Shown here piece after piece: positions 12,214 to 32,650 of a DNA stretch of 64,000 bases. A program made the position numbers and the translations under genes. Location: the NCBI GenBank assembly GCA_001769505.1, contig MEOF01000006.1, forward strand, positions 62,001 through 126,000. Direction: 5' to 3'. The DNA is from Bacteroidetes bacterium GWF2_33_38 (lineage in GTDB: Bacteria; Bacteroidota; Bacteroidia; Bacteroidales; GWF2-33-38). Numbering within the stretch: position 1 is the first letter of the stretch; each line of letters begins with the position of its first letter. The notes under the pieces were generated by a model. The model was not told the DNA's origin and made no database searches. It saw only the letters and a program-made list of their open reading frames with translations.

Positions 12214-12541
12214 GTCGAATGTTGCTTTATTTTTACAAAATATAGGAATGTGAAGTGGAAACACTTCACAAAAGTAAAAAAAGCAAACATCAACAACACC
12301 GACAAATTAACTTACCCCAAGCTCTATCCCGCTCATGCACACAATGTGTTTCCATACATGTAAAATATTTTTGCAATCGTTTTTTTTAAAACGAATATTT
12401 GCAATGTAAAATTATTACAAAAGCGGCAGCTATTTCTAATTTTGAATATGCTATTGGGTGAAATAATTTATGTAATATTGTAAATTAAATGATTAGTATA
12501 AGAAACTTCCTTTCAATCTTTTTTTTTGCTTAACATCAAAT
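12214..12541. other. Intergenic region with hairpins and the lost signal-peptide start of the next gene
   Basis: A stem with 9-base arms and a GAAA tetraloop is at 12249-12270 (TGTGAAGTG/CACTTCACA). A second weaker hairpin is around 12380-12396 (TCGTTTT/AAAACGA). From 12489 a short frame encodes a typical signal peptide that runs into a 9-T tract and stops; see the frameshift finding. Confidence 0.6.
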
Positions 12542-13075
12542 GTGTTTTGCCAGTTTGTTGTTACTGCAAACGGGGATAGTATTATTATTATAAATGCAGA
12601 CGAAAAAAAGCTAGTTGAGGCAGGAATGCCAGTTCCTTCAATAAAATTATATAATATTGATAACGATACAACTTCATTAGATTCTTTATTTGGTAAATAT
12701 ATATTGCTTAATATATGGCATACTAGATGTGGTTCATGTATAAAAAATATTCCTAATATTGATTCTATTTTGACAAGATATTCAGATGTTATAGTTGTAA
12801 ATATTTCCGTTGATGAAGATTTAAATAAATGGAAGGAAGTTGTAAAAGCTAGAAATTTTAAAGGAGTTCATTTGCTAGGATATTATGAAGACATTCCTAT
12901 TAGATATTTTGTGATGACTAAATTTAAGTTTAAAAATGAGGATGGTATTATTTATGGAATGAACTACCCTCATTATGTGCTAATTGACAAGCAAGGCATA
13001 ATTATGTATAATAATACACCCAATATCAATCCTAAAAACTGGAAGTTTTTTTCAGAAATATTAAAAAAGAAATAG
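12542..13075 (+). CDS. Secreted TlpA/ResA-like thioredoxin-fold protein, N-terminus frameshifted
   Basis: 177 residues as an open frame from GTG 12542. The fold is thioredoxin-like of the TlpA/AhpC-TSA type: AGMPVPSIKLYNIDND, then LLNIWHTRCGSCIKNIPNID with the CxxC at Cys63-Cys66, VVNISVDEDLNKW and HYVLIDKQGIIMY. Such proteins reduce periplasmic disulfides, often in cytochrome maturation. The listed start is probably not real: the same frame is open back to 12497, and with one extra T in the 9-T run (12519-12527) it joins to ATG 12489, giving the signal peptide MISIRNFLSIFFFCLTSN and then VFCQ. The gene may be broken, phase-variable, or carry a sequence error. Confidence 0.8.
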   Translation: MFCQFVVTANGDSIIIINADEKKLVEAGMPVPSIKLYNIDNDTTSLDSLFGKYILLNIWHTRCGSCIKNIPNIDSILTRYSDVIVVNISVDEDLNKWKEVVKARNFKGVHLLGYYEDIPIRYFVMTKFKFKNEDGIIYGMNYPHYVLIDKQGIIMYNNTPNINPKNWKFFSEILKKK

Positions 13076-14055: not shown

Positions 14056-15645
14056 ATGGAATTAAAACGATATCAACGAATTTTATTGTCATTAATAAGT
14101 GGTGTTTTGATAAGTTTGCCATGGCTACACGTAGGAATGGGGTATTTTTTACTCTTCGCTTTTGTTCCCTTGCTATTTGTCGAAGATTATATTTATGAAA
14201 ATCGTAAAAAATATTCTTCGTTAAAACTTTTCAATTTATCGTATTTGGGAATATTTACATGGAATGTGTTGGCTCAATGGTGGATTTCGTATGCTACGCT
14301 TTTTGGAGCGATTGCAGCGATGTTTATTAATGCGTTTTTTGTAACAATTGTTTTTTGGATTTTTCATTTAATTCGTCGCAGTTCAGGAACTCGAATCGGA
14401 TATTTGAGTTTTGTGGTTTTGTGGTTGGCATTTGAATACGTACATCTGAATTGGGAATTGTCGTGGCCATGGATTATGCTTGGTCATGGCTTGTCGGGAA
14501 ATATTCATTTGGTACAATGGTACGAATATACCGGCTCGCAGGGAGGAACACTCTGGATTTTAGTTTCAAATTTATTGATTTTTATAAGCATTAAATCATT
14601 TATAACTAACAAGAAATATAAAATACAACTTTCACAATCGCTTGCATTTATTATTATTCCAATCGTAATTTCATTAAGTATTTTTTACTCGTATGTAGAA
14701 AAAGAAAATCCTCGTAATATTGTGGTAGTTCAGCCAAATATCGACCCGTATAACGATAAATTCGGAGGGATTTCTCCTGCGGCTCAATTAAAAATGTTAC
14801 TCGAATTAGCGAAAACAAAAACCAATAGCAAAACCGATTTTATCGTTGGACCTGAAACCGCATTAGTTCGAAATTTATGGGAGGAAAAATTACACGAAAC
14901 GCCCGAATATTACGATTTAAAGAAATTTTTACAATCGTATCCAAAAGCAAAATTTGTTATTGGACTTTCTTCATTACGCGAATACCGCAATGGAGAAGAA
15001 ATATCAGCTACTGCTCGTAAGTTTTACGATGCCGATAAATATTACGATTCATATAATACGGCTATGCTAGTTGATACGACATTAAACATACAACTTTATC
15101 ATAAATCGCAATTGGTTATAGGGGTTGAAAAAATTCCTTTCCCTTCGGTTTTGGGAAGCTTGGCTCTTGACTTGGGAGGTACAGTTGGAAGTCTTGGAAC
15201 ACAAAAAGAACGTACTGTGTTCAAATCGCTTGACGATACTGTAGGAGTTGCTCCTGTTATATGTTATGAATCGGTTTATGGTGAATTTGTGAGCGATTAT
15301 GTGAAAAATGGTGCCGATTTAATATTTATCATCACAAACGACGGCTGGTGGGAAGACACTCCCGGATACAAACATCATTTGAGTTATGCTTCGCTTCGAG
15401 CTATCGAAACCCGCAGAAGCATAGCTCGCTCAGCAAATACCGGAATATCATGTTTTGTAAATCAACGAGGCGAAATTTTACAAGCTACAAATTGGTGGAC
15501 TCCCGATGTTATTTCAGGAGTAATTAACGCAAACAGCGAAATCACATTCTATACAAAAAATGGAGATTATATTGGGAGAATTGCAGGGTTTGTTGCAATT
15601 CTTCTGATTGTGATTAGCTTTGTTAAAAAGTTGATGCGGAAATGA
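14056..15645 (+). CDS. lnt: Apolipoprotein N-acyltransferase
   Basis: 529 residues. The N-terminal half (about 1-215) has six or so membrane segments, with the conserved LNWELSWPWIMLGHGLSGN and QWYEYTGSQGGTLWI. The nitrilase-like half carries the catalytic triad: Glu267 in VGPETAL, Lys350 in LYHKSQLV and Cys403 in VICYESVYGEF; ITNDGWWEDTPGYKHHL is also diagnostic. It adds the third acyl chain to outer-membrane lipoproteins, in line with the many lipoproteins in this window. A hydrophobic C-terminal helix (about 507-526) closes the protein. Confidence 0.95.
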   Translation: MELKRYQRILLSLISGVLISLPWLHVGMGYFLLFAFVPLLFVEDYIYENRKKYSSLKLFNLSYLGIFTWNVLAQWWISYATLFGAIAAMFINAFFVTIVFWIFHLIRRSSGTRIGYLSFVVLWLAFEYVHLNWELSWPWIMLGHGLSGNIHLVQWYEYTGSQGGTLWILVSNLLIFISIKSFITNKKYKIQLSQSLAFIIIPIVISLSIFYSYVEKENPRNIVVVQPNIDPYNDKFGGISPAAQLKMLLELAKTKTNSKTDFIVGPETALVRNLWEEKLHETPEYYDLKKFLQSYPKAKFVIGLSSLREYRNGEEISATARKFYDADKYYDSYNTAMLVDTTLNIQLYHKSQLVIGVEKIPFPSVLGSLALDLGGTVGSLGTQKERTVFKSLDDTVGVAPVICYESVYGEFVSDYVKNGADLIFIITNDGWWEDTPGYKHHLSYASLRAIETRRSIARSANTGISCFVNQRGEILQATNWWTPDVISGVINANSEITFYTKNGDYIGRIAGFVAILLIVISFVKKLMRK

Positions 15646-15743: not shown

Positions 15744-15811
15744 CATAAAAAGACCTCCAAGCTTATTAAAACTATGGAGGTTTTCGGTTTTAGAAGACTT
15801 ACTTCTTTTAC
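15744..15811. repeat. Direct repeat with terminator hairpin, copy 1
   Basis: About 68 bases containing ACCTCCAAGCTTATTAAAA and the pairing TGGAGGT, then a T-run and CTTCTTTTAC. The stem is ACCTCCA (15753-15759) with TGGAGGT (15775-15781). Nearly the same sequence returns at 17057-17122. It lies after lnt and is a plausible rho-independent terminator of that operon. Confidence 0.8.
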
Positions 15812-15838
15812 TTTCTTAGAAAATTTTATATTTTTTGA

Positions 15839-15973
15839 TTAGATTTGTATAATATACTTGTTGGTAATTACATCAACAAAGATGGAATAAATGGTATTTT
15901 GCTAAAAATAGAAGAATTTACTCTTTATATTATAGAGCAACAAAAGCAAATAGATGAGTTAAAAAATAATTAA
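15839..15973 (+). pseudogene. Remnant of a secreted/tail-fibre-like protein C-terminus
   Basis: An open stretch of 44 codons with no start, ending at TAA 15971-15973. Its translation contains LVGNYINKDGINGILLKIEE and ends IIEQQKQIDELKNN. A short coiled coil of the form L..KIEE.TLY.IEQ.K.I..LK is common at the C-terminus of Bacteroidota secreted and S74-type tail-fibre proteins. Nothing of the rest of such a gene is present. It therefore looks like a 3' scrap, left directly after terminator copy 1. Identity is a guess from pattern only. Confidence 0.4.
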
Positions 15974-15987
15974 GAACAAATTTTAAA

Positions 15988-17016
15988 ATAAATATTATCA
16001 AACACTTTGTAACAATATTTTTAATTTTTCATAACCTTTCCGTTTCTTTCGGACAAGGGAGTGTTGTTGAGCCGCTTTCTAATAGATTCAATTGGTGTGA
16101 GAATCAAAAAGTTGGTTGTAAATGTAACGAAAATGCAGATTTTTGGAGAGCGATTATCAATGACGATTATGAAAAATATCATCCCAAGAAAAAATACACT
16201 GTTGATAGTAGCCTATACAGAGATTTTAATCCAGATACTGTTTTTGAATATTTAATAAATAGCAAAAATTTATCTCAGCATTTTGATAGTATAGTTAAAT
16301 ATTCAGATGATACTTTTAGAGTTCGATTATCATCTTTATTATACAACTACTTTTATAAAATACCGGATGCTTTTTGCAATCAAAGATGTAGAACTGTTCT
16401 TAAAAAGCAAGACGATTGGTCAGTTGATAAATATCAGGAAGAACTTGAAAAATTTAGAAAAGATTGTAGTATTATAGGGATAGTTGAAGACGCACTAATA
16501 TCTTTATCAGAGTATGTTTTATTGGAGACAAATAGAAACTTTCTGAAAGATGTTATTGCCAAATCTTGTAGTAATGGTCTTATTTCAAAGGCATCAATAG
16601 CTTTAATAAAGCATAACGAAAAAGAACTTGCTTTCAGTAGTCTAAAAGAATTGTGGCATAATAAAAATAGCGAATCATACATATATCGGTTTCATGAAGG
16701 ATTTAAAAAGTTAAATAATAGCGATGGCGTTGCTTTTTTAAAATTTGCCGCTCAGGATTCAATTATATGTGTGAGTTTTGATGCTTGTGTAAAATTAATA
16801 GAAATGGGATATAAAGATTATTCAAAAACAATTATCGAAAAACATTTAAAAGGGAAATATAGTCTGATTAGTATTGACTTGCTTTTAAGATATTATTATA
16901 ATCAAGAAACGATAGCTTTGGTTACAGACCATCTTAATAATTCTATGGACGAAGAATTAAAATACTGTGGCGAATTATTATTAAAAAAATATAAATTTAA
17001 AATCAAAGATTATTAA
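15988..17016 (+). CDS. Secreted helical-repeat-like protein lacking a standard start codon
   Basis: The frame is open from 15970 to 17016 without a stop, but has no ATG, GTG or TTG before 16522. Read from the ATA at 15988 it gives 342 residues. They begin with a clear signal peptide (NIIKHFVTIFLIFHNLSVSF, then GQ), so the true start is near 15988 or the ATT at 15994. The mature N-terminus has four Cys (WCENQKVGCKCNENADF plus a later RCRTV Cys). The C-terminal half is helical and HEAT-like (ALIKHNEKELAFSSLKELW, then DACVKLIEMGYKDYSKTIIE). I do not recognise the family. Either the start codon was lost, or a rare start is used, or there is a sequence error. It sits between two terminator repeats. 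Confidence 0.6.
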   Translation: MNIIKHFVTIFLIFHNLSVSFGQGSVVEPLSNRFNWCENQKVGCKCNENADFWRAIINDDYEKYHPKKKYTVDSSLYRDFNPDTVFEYLINSKNLSQHFDSIVKYSDDTFRVRLSSLLYNYFYKIPDAFCNQRCRTVLKKQDDWSVDKYQEELEKFRKDCSIIGIVEDALISLSEYVLLETNRNFLKDVIAKSCSNGLISKASIALIKHNEKELAFSSLKELWHNKNSESYIYRFHEGFKKLNNSDGVAFLKFAAQDSIICVSFDACVKLIEMGYKDYSKTIIEKHLKGKYSLISIDLLLRYYYNQETIALVTDHLNNSMDEELKYCGELLLKKYKFKIKDY

Positions 17017-17056: not shown

Positions 17057-17122
17057 CATAAAAAACCTCCAAGCTTATTAAAATCTTGGAGGTTTTTGGG
17101 TTTTAAAAGATTCTTCTTTTAA
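17057..17122. repeat. Direct repeat with terminator hairpin, copy 2
   Basis: AAAAACCTCCAAG (17061-17073) pairs perfectly with CTTGGAGGTTTTT (17085-17097), a 13-base stem with A and T runs on both sides, so it can terminate transcription in both directions. It separates the plus-strand gene ending at 17016 from the minus-strand gene ending at 17132. The loop and flanks match copy 1 at 15744-15811. Confidence 0.85.
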
Positions 17123-17131
17123 CAAAATAAA

Positions 17132-17701
17132 TTACACGTTTAATCTATCTTTAAAGGGTTCGAATGTCATAAAATCAGCATGGTGAACAACAAAAGCTTC
17201 GGTGGTTCGCTTTATCATGTCGCCTTCTCCGGCGTGTGCCGCAATGATATGACAAACTTCGGCAGGAACTCCGCACATTTCGGCTAATGAAACTCCCGAA
17301 AACGGATGTCGTAAATATTTTCCATACTTTCCCTGAACTGATTTTCCATCTTTCATTTCGTATTCTAACAATTTTCCAACATCGGCTAAAATTGCTCCCG
17401 AAATTAGTACGTCCATATTGCAAGTTAATTCACCGCGGTACATTTCGTTCATTTTTTGTCCTGCATCGCGGGCAATGTGTACAACCGAACGTTTGTGATC
17501 CATAAATGTTACTTTTAAATCGGGTCCGCAAAGTAAGGTAAATGGGATTTTATTCAAATCATCGGGTGTCAATACACTTTTTTGTAAAGCCAATGCCCAA
17601 GTGTCAGTGGTTTGTTTGCGTAATTCAGCATTTTTAATCCAATCCAATTCGGGCCACAATTTTTTAGCTTTATCAATAAATTCTTGCTTAATTTCTATCA
17701 T
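17132..17701 (-). CDS. HD-domain-like protein with altered metal motif
   Basis: 189 residues with the HD-superfamily layout: FMDHKRSVVHIARDAG (His69, His75), ISGAILADVGKLLEYE (101-115), RHPFSGVSLAE (His132), HIIAAHAGEGD (His151, His156) and HHADFM (Asp176). The central motif, normally HDxGK, reads ADVGK (106-110), so the first metal-binding His is Ala. Other His residues are kept, so the protein may still bind a metal or be a catalytically changed member. It starts 10 bases after the isocitrate/isopropylmalate-type dehydrogenase gene and must be co-transcribed with it; a shared substrate pathway is likely but unknown. Confidence 0.82.
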   Translation of the reverse strand: MIEIKQEFIDKAKKLWPELDWIKNAELRKQTTDTWALALQKSVLTPDDLNKIPFTLLCGPDLKVTFMDHKRSVVHIARDAGQKMNEMYRGELTCNMDVLISGAILADVGKLLEYEMKDGKSVQGKYGKYLRHPFSGVSLAEMCGVPAEVCHIIAAHAGEGDMIKRTTEAFVVHHADFMTFEPFKDRLNV

Positions 17702-27350: not shown

Positions 27351-30275
27351 TTATTCAATAATTATCTCATCAACAAATATAAACGATTTTCCTCCAAATC
27401 CCGCATGCCATTCGGGAATATTTCCAACGTTTTTGGCAAATATTTTAATATATCTTACGTCTTTAGGATATAAATTTACAACAAAGTCTTTGGTAATCAG
27501 TGAATAATCGTTATTTTGAATTTCGTTTTTGATTGTCCATATTTTTGTAAAATTTTGACCATCGGACGAAATTAGTATGTCAACGTATTTTGGCATCCAA
27601 ATCCAAGACCGAATATCTTGTAAAAAACCAGCTCCGAATTTCGATATACTTTTTGTTTCGCCCAAATCAACAATGGCTTCAAAATCTGTATCTTGATAGC
27701 CTTGCCAATTTCCTAGTTTGAAATTTGTTGTTCCTCTGATTTGATCTATTAATCCGATGTCTCCTCCTGCAGAATATTGTGGATTATAAGGATTTATGAT
27801 TCTGATTGAACGATTCTTGCTTATTTTATAGAGTTTACAAGTTTCTACCTTGCTTTTTTTATTTCCGATATACGATATCGCTTTTATTTCGACATTTTTA
27901 TTAATTAAAAGAGGCTTAGTGTATAATGTTGATGATTCGTTTGGTATGCTGCCATCTGTTGTATAGAAAGTTATAACATTTTTGATTGGGGTGTTGATAG
28001 TAATATCTTGCGAATCAATAAAAACTTTGTTATTGTACTCGAAATACGGATTTGAAATAATTTCTGACGAAGAATTGATTGAAGATGGCAAATCTGCGTC
28101 TGTTAATTTCATCGATTTATTTGCAGTATTCGTCATTTCAAAAACGATATGACCTCCTTCTAAAATATCACGATGTGTAATATATGTTTTTGTATATTTT
28201 TTTGAGTTAAGTTCCGTTGATTCAATATAAAAGTTTTCATCATTGATATTTTTTGCATCAATTACGAATTTTTTACCGTTTTCTAAATTGATGGTAATTT
28301 TTTCAAATAAGGGACTTCCTATAATGTACTCGTTACTTCCAGGACATACAGGATAAAATCCCATTGCACTTAAAACATACCATGCCGACATTTGTCCACA
28401 GTCTTCATTTCCGCATAAACCGTTAGCATCAGATGAATACAATTTTGTTAATATTTCGTGTACGTATTGTTGAGTTTTCCAAGGTTCTTTAGCATAAGAG
28501 TACAAATAAGCCATGTGATGACTGGGTTCGTTTCCGTGGGCGTATTGTCCTATTAATCCAGTAATGTCAACTTGTTGTCGACCTGATGTATGAGATGATG
28601 TTGTGAACAGAGAATCTAGTTTTTTAGTAAAATAATTATTTCCGCCATGTAAGTTTATTAGTCCTTTTACATCGTGAGGAACATAAAAGCTATATTGCCA
28701 CGAGTTTGCTTCGGTATAATGATTATTGACTTCTGATGGATTAAATGGAGAATACCATTTGCCATTTTCTTTTGCCCGCATAAATTTGGTTTCGGGGTCG
28801 AACATATTTTTATAAGATTGTGCTCTTACCATATAATATTCGTAATCCTCTTTTTTGTTTAATTTTTTTGCCATTTGAGCAATACACCAATCGTCGTAAG
28901 CGTACTCTAATGTTTTTGAAACCGACTCATGTTCTTTATCCGATGGAATATAGCCGTATTCTTTATATGAATCCAATCCCAAATGGTTGAGCATGCTGCT
29001 ATTTTTTATTGCTTCATATGCTTTGAGTGAATCAAAATTATCGATTCCTTTTAAAAATGCATCAGCGATTACTGAAACAGAATGATATCCAATCATACAA
29101 TCGGTTTCATTTCCTGCAAGTTCCCATATAGGAAGTCTTCCTCCTTCCTCATATTGTTTTATGAATGTGTTTATAAAATCATTCGTACGTTGAGGCTCAA
29201 TAATCGTAAGCAGAGGATGAGCTGCTCTGTATGTATCCCAAAGTGAAAATACGGTATAATAATTTGAATTTTCAATTCGATGAATCCGTAAATCTCTTCC
29301 GCGATATTTTCCGTCAACATCATTAAAAATATTTGGGTGAGTAGCTGTATGGTAGAGTGCTGTGTAAAAAACTTTTTTATATTCTTCTTCTCCTTCAACA
29401 TCGATTTTACTTAAATACGATTTCCATTCCAATGTTGCTTTATCTTTACACATATTGAAATTCCATTCGGGATTTTCATTCTCTAAACTTTGTTTTGCAC
29501 CTTCAATACTTACGCTGGAAATACCAACTTTTGACATTAGGGTTTTATCATTTTCCTCGAAAGATAAAACGAGTTTTACATTTTTTCCTTCGTGTTTTGT
29601 CGAGTCAAGAATTAGCGAATCGTTTATATAAAAATAGCTTTTACGAATCGGTTTTGAAAGTTTACTGTAAAAATAAATGTGTTGTTCGGCTGCCCAAGCT
29701 TTTGAAATTCGATAGCCACAAATCGTAGAATCATTTATAATTTCAATTTTCGATTCCAACACTTCATCTCGATGGTTTAAATCGATAAGCAAATATTGTT
29801 CTGCATGATCCGGAAAACTATATGAATGAAATCCTGAACGAGCAGTAACGGTAAATTCGCAATTAATTTGATTTTTCAATTTTACGGAATAATAACCGGG
29901 ACTTGCTTTTTCGTTGTTGTGGTTAAATGATGAAGATATTTTGTTGTATGTTTTACTCTTGTCGAAATTTGTTGTTGGCATAAATAAAATGTCGCCATAA
30001 TCGGAACACCCGGTTCCACTTAGATGCGTATGGCTGAATCCATATATGATGCTGTCAGAAAAATGATAAGCAGAGCAGCCATCCCAGCCTGATAATCGAG
30101 TGTCGGGGCTGAGTTGAACCATACCGAATGGGAGCGTGGCTCCCGGAAATGTGTGTCCGTGTCCATCAGTCCCAACCAATGGATTTACGTAAAGCGTTAA
30201 ATCTACATTTTCCTCATGTGTTGAACATGATGCAATAATTAAAAAAAATGAAATGTAAAACAGTATTTTCTTCAT
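27351..30275 (-). CDS. GH92 family alpha-mannosidase, lipoprotein
   Basis: 974 residues from ATG 30275. The signal ends at Cys18 (FFLIIASCS), so the enzyme is lipid-anchored, probably outside or at the outer membrane. The GH92 module covers about 25-720, with NPLVGTDGHGHTFPGATLPF, DTRLSGWDGCSAYHFSDS, SLWDTYRAAHPLLTIIEP, then GNEDCGQMSAWYVLSAMGFY near the C-terminal part, where the catalytic acidic residues lie. A chitobiase C-terminal-like domain (about 790-840) and an F5/8-type C-like domain (about 860-974) follow. GH92 enzymes are calcium-dependent exo-alpha-mannosidases acting on yeast mannan or high-mannose glycans. The frame runs 38 codons further, but the lipoprotein signal fixes the start. 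Confidence 0.94.
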   Translation of the reverse strand: MKKILFYISFFLIIASCSTHEENVDLTLYVNPLVGTDGHGHTFPGATLPFGMVQLSPDTRLSGWDGCSAYHFSDSIIYGFSHTHLSGTGCSDYGDILFMPTTNFDKSKTYNKISSSFNHNNEKASPGYYSVKLKNQINCEFTVTARSGFHSYSFPDHAEQYLLIDLNHRDEVLESKIEIINDSTICGYRISKAWAAEQHIYFYSKLSKPIRKSYFYINDSLILDSTKHEGKNVKLVLSFEENDKTLMSKVGISSVSIEGAKQSLENENPEWNFNMCKDKATLEWKSYLSKIDVEGEEEYKKVFYTALYHTATHPNIFNDVDGKYRGRDLRIHRIENSNYYTVFSLWDTYRAAHPLLTIIEPQRTNDFINTFIKQYEEGGRLPIWELAGNETDCMIGYHSVSVIADAFLKGIDNFDSLKAYEAIKNSSMLNHLGLDSYKEYGYIPSDKEHESVSKTLEYAYDDWCIAQMAKKLNKKEDYEYYMVRAQSYKNMFDPETKFMRAKENGKWYSPFNPSEVNNHYTEANSWQYSFYVPHDVKGLINLHGGNNYFTKKLDSLFTTSSHTSGRQQVDITGLIGQYAHGNEPSHHMAYLYSYAKEPWKTQQYVHEILTKLYSSDANGLCGNEDCGQMSAWYVLSAMGFYPVCPGSNEYIIGSPLFEKITINLENGKKFVIDAKNINDENFYIESTELNSKKYTKTYITHRDILEGGHIVFEMTNTANKSMKLTDADLPSSINSSSEIISNPYFEYNNKVFIDSQDITINTPIKNVITFYTTDGSIPNESSTLYTKPLLINKNVEIKAISYIGNKKSKVETCKLYKISKNRSIRIINPYNPQYSAGGDIGLIDQIRGTTNFKLGNWQGYQDTDFEAIVDLGETKSISKFGAGFLQDIRSWIWMPKYVDILISSDGQNFTKIWTIKNEIQNNDYSLITKDFVVNLYPKDVRYIKIFAKNVGNIPEWHAGFGGKSFIFVDEIIIE

Positions 30276-30286
30276 CTTGTTGAATG

Positions 30287-31246
30287 TTACTTGTTTAATT
30301 CGTTCCAGCACAAAGCCGCACTTCCTAGAACAGCAGTCATATTTCCTTTTAATCCTGATTCGAGTATTTTGACAGTTCCCGTGAAACAAGTCAATAAGTT
30401 TTCGTTAAACGATTTAATCGTTGGTTTGAATATGAAATCTCCCGATTGTGCAAGTCCTCCAAATAGAAATATTGCTTCGGGGCTTGTTATTGCAACCATA
30501 TTTGCAAGGCTTAGTCCAAGCATTTCGCCGGTAAACTCAAATGCTTCAATGGCGAGTTTGTCTCCATTTTTGGCTGCATCGAAAATATGTTTAGATGTGA
30601 TTTCGTTGATGTTGTAATTTCTTAATTCCGATTCAACCGTTTTGTTTTCGAGGAGTTCAATCATTGTTCGGGTTATTCCGGTTGCAGAAACATATGTTTC
30701 GAGGCAACCTTTTCTTCCACATCCGCATTGGCGACCGTCTTTTACAACGGTTGTATGTCCAAGTTCTCCGGCGAAACCACTATAACCATATAAAACGTTT
30801 CCATTGGTTACGAATCCGCTTCCTAAGCCCGTACCAAGCGTTATTACAACGAATTCTTTCATATTTTTTGCTCCACCAAACAACATTTCTCCAATTGCAG
30901 CAGCATTTGCATCATTGGTAATATAAGTAGGAACCTTGAATGCTTGCTCTACAATCTGTTTTAGTTTTATTGTTCCATGCCAGTTTAAATTTGGAGCGTT
31001 TTCAACTATCCCAGTGTAATAGTTTGCATTTGGGGCACCAATGCCAAAACCAATTATTTCTACGTCTTTATTCTTTGTTATTAAATCGCTTATATTTTTC
31101 ACAAAAATTGTAAAGTAATCTTCGAAGCTGTTGCCTTGTTTGGTCGAAAACGAAATGTTTTCTGTGCATTCTCCGTCCTTATTAACTAAACCAACAACCG
31201 TGTTTGTGCCTCCAATATCTATTCCGATAACCATTTGTTGTTTCAT
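30287..31246 (-). CDS. ROK family sugar kinase
   Basis: 319 residues. The ATP-binding motif DIGGTNTVVGLV is at 10-21 and the catalytic Asp112 sits in ITNDANAAA. The ROK signature follows: Glu161/His164 in GELGHTTVV, then the zinc cluster Cys174, Cys176, Cys181 in QCGCGRKGCLE. It phosphorylates a hexose, and the mannosidase context suggests mannose or glucose. It starts 21 bases after the MFS permease stop and ends 11 bases before the GH92 start codon. Confidence 0.93.
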   Translation of the reverse strand: MKQQMVIGIDIGGTNTVVGLVNKDGECTENISFSTKQGNSFEDYFTIFVKNISDLITKNKDVEIIGFGIGAPNANYYTGIVENAPNLNWHGTIKLKQIVEQAFKVPTYITNDANAAAIGEMLFGGAKNMKEFVVITLGTGLGSGFVTNGNVLYGYSGFAGELGHTTVVKDGRQCGCGRKGCLETYVSATGITRTMIELLENKTVESELRNYNINEITSKHIFDAAKNGDKLAIEAFEFTGEMLGLSLANMVAITSPEAIFLFGGLAQSGDFIFKPTIKSFNENLLTCFTGTVKILESGLKGNMTAVLGSAALCWNELNK

Positions 31247-31267
31247 AATTTTTTATCTTAAATTTGA

Positions 31268-32650
31268 TTAATTCGGTAATTCTTTAATTTTATATCCTTT
31301 CAATCCGAAATATGCAATATAAATGTATGCTAAAAGAGGGATAATGAATGAATATTGAATCCCAATTTTATCGGCTAAATATCCTTGAATAATTGGTAAA
31401 GTTGCTCCTCCAACAATCATCATTATTAAAAGTGATGAGCCCTGAGAAGTAAACTTGCCAAGTTTTGCTATCGATAAAGTAAAGATATTTGACCACATTA
31501 TTGAGTTGAAAATACCAACTCCTAATATTAACCACATTGCTAAGTAACCGTTAGTAAATATAGCCGTAGCGATAAATGCTATTGCTAAAAGGCTGAATAT
31601 GAATAGAGTTCTACTTGTTTTTGATTTTCCGGCTATAAATGCAAAGAATGAAATTAAGATGTTGAAAACGTAAAATATAACAGTATTCAGGCTAATTCCG
31701 CTTTTTGCGTATGCAGATAAATAAATTATAAAAAATGCAGCAACAGCACTGACAATCATGTAGGCATACATTAAATGTTTTTTGTCGAATTTTGATAATG
31801 ATATGGCTCCCATAAATCGTCCAATCATTAAACCTCCCCAATAAAAAGCAACAAATGTACTTGCTTCATTTTCGGTTAAACCTGTAATATTGTCGAGTCC
31901 GATAAAACTAATTAGAATACTTCCGATTCCTACTTCTGCACCAACATACATGAAAATGGCAATCATTCCTAGTTTTAAATGTCTGAATTTTAATGCTCCA
32001 AGTCCTTTTACTATTTCCTCTGATTTGTTAATGTGAGGCAGTTTCGTGAATGTTATGATTAAAGCAATTAAGATAAATACGACTGTGAATATTAAATATG
32101 GAATTTGTACCGAATTTGAATTAGATGAATCGGAGTTTGCAAAATATTTAAAAATTAAAAAACCTCCGATTAAGGGTGCTATTGTTGTTCCAAGTGAATT
32201 GAAACCTTGAGCAAGGTTTAATCTTCCCGAAGCGGTTTTTTCATCTCCAAGTATCGAAATGTATGGATTGGCAGCAATTTGTAGCATCGTAAATCCTAAT
32301 CCTATAACAAATAATGCCGAAAGAAAGAACCCATAAGACTTAATTTCAGAAGCGGGATAAAACAGACTCGTGCCAATAGCGGATAAAACAAGCCCAACGA
32401 TAATTCCTCGTTTATATCCAATCTTATTAATAGGATCTCCGTAGTTTGACGATACAAAAAAATAAATAATTGAACCAACGAAATATGCACCAAAAAACGA
32501 AAACTGAACTAACATGGCTCTAAAGTGAGTAAGTTCAAATATCTTTTTCATATGTGGAATTAAAATGTCGTTCATACAAGTCATAAAACCCCACATAAAA
32601 AATAAAGATGTTATTACGAAAATTGCGGCTGTATTTTTTTTAGTACTCAT
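31268..32650 (-). CDS. FucP/GluP-type MFS sugar transporter
   Basis: 460 residues with about 12 membrane segments. The family start LFFMWGFMTCMNDILIPHMK, then FELTHFRAMLVQFSFFGAYF is specific to the FHS group (FucP, GluP). GLGFTMLQIAANPYISILG in helix 4 also fits. These are proton-coupled importers of fucose, glucose, galactose or related sugars. It follows the regulator gene by one base and precedes the ROK kinase. Import of the freed mannose across the inner membrane is the likely role. Confidence 0.93.
   Translation of the reverse strand: MSTKKNTAAIFVITSLFFMWGFMTCMNDILIPHMKKIFELTHFRAMLVQFSFFGAYFVGSIIYFFVSSNYGDPINKIGYKRGIIVGLVLSAIGTSLFYPASEIKSYGFFLSALFVIGLGFTMLQIAANPYISILGDEKTASGRLNLAQGFNSLGTTIAPLIGGFLIFKYFANSDSSNSNSVQIPYLIFTVVFILIALIITFTKLPHINKSEEIVKGLGALKFRHLKLGMIAIFMYVGAEVGIGSILISFIGLDNITGLTENEASTFVAFYWGGLMIGRFMGAISLSKFDKKHLMYAYMIVSAVAAFFIIYLSAYAKSGISLNTVIFYVFNILISFFAFIAGKSKTSRTLFIFSLLAIAFIATAIFTNGYLAMWLILGVGIFNSIMWSNIFTLSIAKLGKFTSQGSSLLIMMIVGGATLPIIQGYLADKIGIQYSFIIPLLAYIYIAYFGLKGYKIKELPN

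Follow-up and report, generated by a model that had tools for sequence, protein, structure and literature searches.

A 342-codon frame for a putative secreted helical protein with no standard start codon at its front in Bacteroidetes bacterium GWF2_33_38

An open frame of the forward strand (15988-17016, 342 codons and a stop) carries a coding signal in both of its halves, has no ATG, GTG or TTG at its front and lies among promoter-like and hairpin repeats. We regard it with high confidence as a gene, either now or until very recently. The reading that we tentatively prefer is that of a genuine gene, specific to this lineage and encoding a secreted alpha-solenoid of ~342 residues, the standard start codon of which would have been lost very recently. 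All positions refer to the window, the whole stretch of 64,000 nucleotides that was analyzed (contig MEOF01000006.1, positions 62,001 to 126,000).

The open frame and its predicted protein

The first-pass annotation had described the frame 15970-17016 as open but devoid of a standard start at its front, and this holds, as the run spans 348 codons without a stop. Near-cognate codons are found in frame at the front of the ORF (ATA 15988, ATT 15994 and ATC 15997), the first two being the candidate starts. A codon scan confirmed that the first ATG, GTG or TTG in frame is the TTG at 16522-16524 (residue 179 counted from 15988), the start that an automatic caller would be expected to choose, giving a protein of 164 aa; the first ATG comes only 278 codons into the open frame. 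The nominal probability of 178 codons without a standard start is ~3e-4. No particular cause has to be invoked for this lack, however, because start-free runs of 201 and 171 codons are also found within two ordinary genes of the window.

At the local base composition, where one stop per 11 codons is expected, 342 open codons would arise by chance with a probability of ~4e-15, and the five other frames contain 16-51 stops each. Codon usage, scored after training on 34 long genes from the window and compared with base shuffles, gave z values of 3.0 for the N-terminal half, 3.7 for the C-terminal half and 4.4 for the whole. The absolute codon score is 0.026, against a mean of 0.159 for core genes and 0.05-0.10 for AT-rich accessory genes of the same genome. 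Both the open frame and the coding signal extend upstream of the first standard start, as they should in a gene with a non-AUG start. The stop-free length and the codon usage show both halves to be coding, so that the product under which the gene evolved must have had ~342 residues and a start near 15988-15994, and the intact frame together with the coding signal over all 342 codons indicates selection as one protein.

It is therefore very unlikely that the gene is just the 164-residue part from TTG 16522, even if this is the first standard start and the choice of automatic callers. The 178 codons that precede this TTG are free of stops (chance ~3e-8 at the local stop rate) and carry the coding signal of z=3.0; starting there would, as previously claimed, cut away half of what is a real coding frame, and the signal peptide would be forfeited. 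The predicted solenoid, in a model of low confidence, also continues unbroken through this point.

The probable Sec signal peptide, (M)NIIKHFVTIFLIFHNLSVSFGQ, is encoded by 15988-16050 of the forward strand (its last residue may fall on either side of the cut); it contains the most hydrophobic 15-residue stretch in the protein and ends in SFGQ. It had been called near-ideal, which is slightly strong: the signal is good and its hydropathy is the highest in the chain, but it contains H and N. The chain that follows contains Cys, and the earlier description of a secreted, Cys-containing, helical protein is supported. Secretion would follow from the signal peptide.

AlphaFold2 modeling of the single mature sequence predicted an uninterrupted series of ~20 helices (pTM 0.53, mean pLDDT 61.6), which makes a secreted helical solenoid protein a reasonable guess. 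The Pfam, NCBIfam and PHROG profiles, repeat families included, gave no match to the protein, although profiles of such repeats are weak. A PDB sequence search returned matches with E 0.025 or worse only and no convincing relative of solved structure, and Foldseek with the predicted model returned nothing with E below 0.02. VIA-align ranked the Integrator subunit 7cun_G first (Z 10.2; 249 residues at an rmsd of 7.6), and the scores of importin, adaptin and PP2A scaffolds were almost as high; for helical repeats, Z values below a level of ~13 may reflect a merely common arrangement.

Flanking DNA

The gene lnt (14056-15645, Pfam LNT_N and CN_hydrolase) lies upstream of the ORF. Behind it is a hairpin repeat (15748-15791), the twin of a hairpin found after the ORF (17060-17103, -18.1 kcal/mol, z -4.1). 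The two are 86% identical, which would fit insertion of the gene along with a copy of a terminator. The downstream copy is a probable bidirectional terminator, at which transcription of the ORF would probably end and which the convergent HD-domain gene (17132-17701) probably shares. An Rfam search gave sub-threshold matches only, located at this downstream hairpin.

A copy of a dispersed repeat occupies 15812-15886 of the forward strand, with a Bacteroidota-type promoter, TAGATTTG, followed by the hairpin TTGTTGGTaattacATCAACAA. The TAGATTTG element fits TAnnTTTG, the -7 consensus of Bacteroidota. The genome has at least eight other copies, with examples on contigs C60, C49, C27, C26, C68 and C5, the layout being the TAGATTTG element, then a TTGTTGGT...ACCAACAA hairpin, with a TTG element ~20 bases ahead in most copies. 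The dispersed repeat is often placed just ahead of accessory genes and may act as a portable promoter. An integron attC site was considered for the hairpin of the repeat and discarded on its core motifs, which are not those of attC. A sigma-70 promoter scan was also tried and its output set aside as AT-rich noise.

In our case the repeat-borne promoter (~15812-15850) and its 5' hairpin lie ~110-180 bases upstream of the front of the ORF, and transcription would probably begin there. Behind five of the eight other copies examined, a co-oriented ORF of 100 aa or more has its ATG 87-218 bases past the repeat start. Counted from the repeat start at 15812, ATA 15988 is 176 bases away and TTG 16522 is 710 bases away. 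The match with the other copies favors a start near 15988 over 16522, and this distance, together with the upstream coding signal, supports the earlier placement of the start near 15988-15994.

Between the repeat and the ORF, another frame of the forward strand holds the remnant of a surface protein's C-terminal tail (LLKIEEFTLYIIEQQKQIDELKNN and a stop, 15902-15973). This relic ends just before the ORF and shares 71% identity across 24 residues with the tail end of a 313-aa protein on contig C34. We considered a programmed -1 frameshift from the relic frame, the stop of which is at 15971-15973. The sole slippery run is A AAA AAT (15961-15967), and the frameshift was rejected because a slip there would land on TAA 15967-15969, before the ORF frame opens.

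Further away, a gene for a secreted thioredoxin-like protein (12489-13075) has its ATG (12489) and the start of its signal peptide out of frame with the rest (12497-13075). The frame break spans a run of nine T (12519-12527), which could be a phase-variable tract, decay or a base error.

Lost start, rare start or base error

No homologue of the protein was found in its own genome, in 99 relatives, or in viral contigs, phages and plasmids, nor in genomes sampled from the phylum (395), the order (393) and the class (395), which overlap in part and amount to ~1,200 sampled genomes altogether. The same result was obtained with a collection of 84,980 species genomes, in a search sensitive to close relatives only. 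A weak match in the own genome (E 0.003) to a 222-aa protein on contig C31, with a coiled-coil-like C-terminal half, was judged to be chance. The same applies, given the number of genomes, to a match in one further genome (G182; E 2e-4, 29% identity), which overlaps the end and the stop of a hexosaminidase-like ORF. Among the genomes searched we found neither relatives with an intact N-terminus nor relatives beginning at residue 179 (16522). In the two genomes of the sister genus, lnt is present but no such gene follows it. By sequence comparison the gene appears lineage-specific and was seen in no other organism searched. The ancestral start is accordingly not visible, which counts against the reading of a lost start. 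The first-pass annotation had offered three options, a lost start, a rare start and a base error.

A base or assembly error that deleted the start from the record, the cell having an ordinary one, is unlikely. The genome is a draft in 70 contigs, and the out-of-frame ATG over the nine-T run of gene 12497-13075 is the pattern expected from homopolymer errors. However, the genome is of good quality (99.1% complete, 0.06% contamination), 34 longer genes in the window run without interruption for at least 200 codons, and the start region of our ORF holds short A/T runs only.

We then turned to infC as a control for rare starts. The product of infC, translation initiation factor IF3, is essential, and its rare AUU or AUA start is an autoregulatory device. 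The infC of this genome (contig C53, ~84959-85462, minus strand) has an ATA start 8 bases past AGGAGG, with no ATG, GTG or TTG ahead of the conserved core. Among 27 readable infC genes from this genome and its relatives, 13 have no standard start before the core, and ATA occupies the start position in 11 of those 13, mostly behind a GGAGG-like sequence and with the sister genus included. Initiation at AUA is thus very probably genuine in this lineage and conserved as an option.

This gives weight to a second reading, possible but less probable than a recent loss, in which the gene is alive and AUA 15988 (or AUU 15994) serves as a rare start and thereby limits expression, in the manner of the IF3 autoregulation of infC. 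The frame is fully intact, and a good signal peptide results from either codon. On the other hand, no GGAGG-like ribosome-binding site precedes ATA 15988 or ATT 15994, although genes of Bacteroidota often do without a Shine-Dalgarno-type site, and rare starts are known from very few genes. We consider improbable the broader proposal that a species-specific secreted solenoid is routinely translated from AUA or AUU without a Shine-Dalgarno site and that near-cognate starts are in ordinary use in this lineage beyond infC, such genes being missed or clipped by annotation.

Of recent loss of the standard start and regular use of a rare one, the former is slightly favored. The signal peptide begins exactly at the point that lacks a start, ATA 15988 lies at a distance from the repeat seen with other copies, and the ATA and ATT are without the GGAGG found at the infC start. 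The neighborhood is worn, as seen in the surface-protein tail relic, the twin hairpins and the out-of-frame ATG of gene 12497-13075, and in the sister genus lnt is not followed by any such gene. The missing ribosome-binding site and the worn neighborhood speak for loss, the undamaged frame and the infC control for use. Any loss must have been very recent because the 342 codons contain no stop or frameshift, lesions that are usual in older pseudogenes but need not be present in a very young one. The ORF would then be either a young pseudogene or a gene weakly expressed from AUA 15988 or AUU 15994.

If the start was lost, gene death has been caught before further damage; if translation does begin at a rare start, secreted proteins of this lineage are missed or shortened by automatic annotation. 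Either way, one orphan gene is affected.

Comparison with known systems

The fold predicted by the model, with helix pairs along the whole chain, would resemble HEAT/ARM-type alpha-solenoids. It differs from them by the low confidence of the model, the generic nature of the structural matches and the lack of a Pfam repeat family.

The hairpin half of the dispersed repeat belongs to a palindromic family of many Bacteroidota, plus Chlorobiota and Ignavibacteria. Across 80 fetched loci, only 3 of 105 palindrome copies lie inside long frames, compared with 61% of random positions. Four related copies (CTGTTGGTGTTATCACCAACAG...CTTGTTGGTGATAACACCAACAAG) are nevertheless found in frame within one FAD-linked oxidase/Fe-S gene of the same genome (contig C11, ~30200-32300), adding peptides such as ASVGVITNRQNELVGDNTNKG and SVGVITNRQNELVGDNTNKG. 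These in-frame copies resemble the Rickettsia palindromic elements. A literature search with the terms used found only general REP work and no published description of a palindromic repeat in Bacteroidetes. The repeat, found four times in frame in a single oxidase gene, could prove of greater interest than the start-less ORF and merits a separate study.

The closest parallel to the ORF itself would be infC, an ordinary gene that also lacks ATG, GTG and TTG at its front and has ATA there in the same genome and in relatives. The two differ in that infC has a GGAGG and is conserved, whereas the orphan ORF has no GGAGG before its candidate starts.
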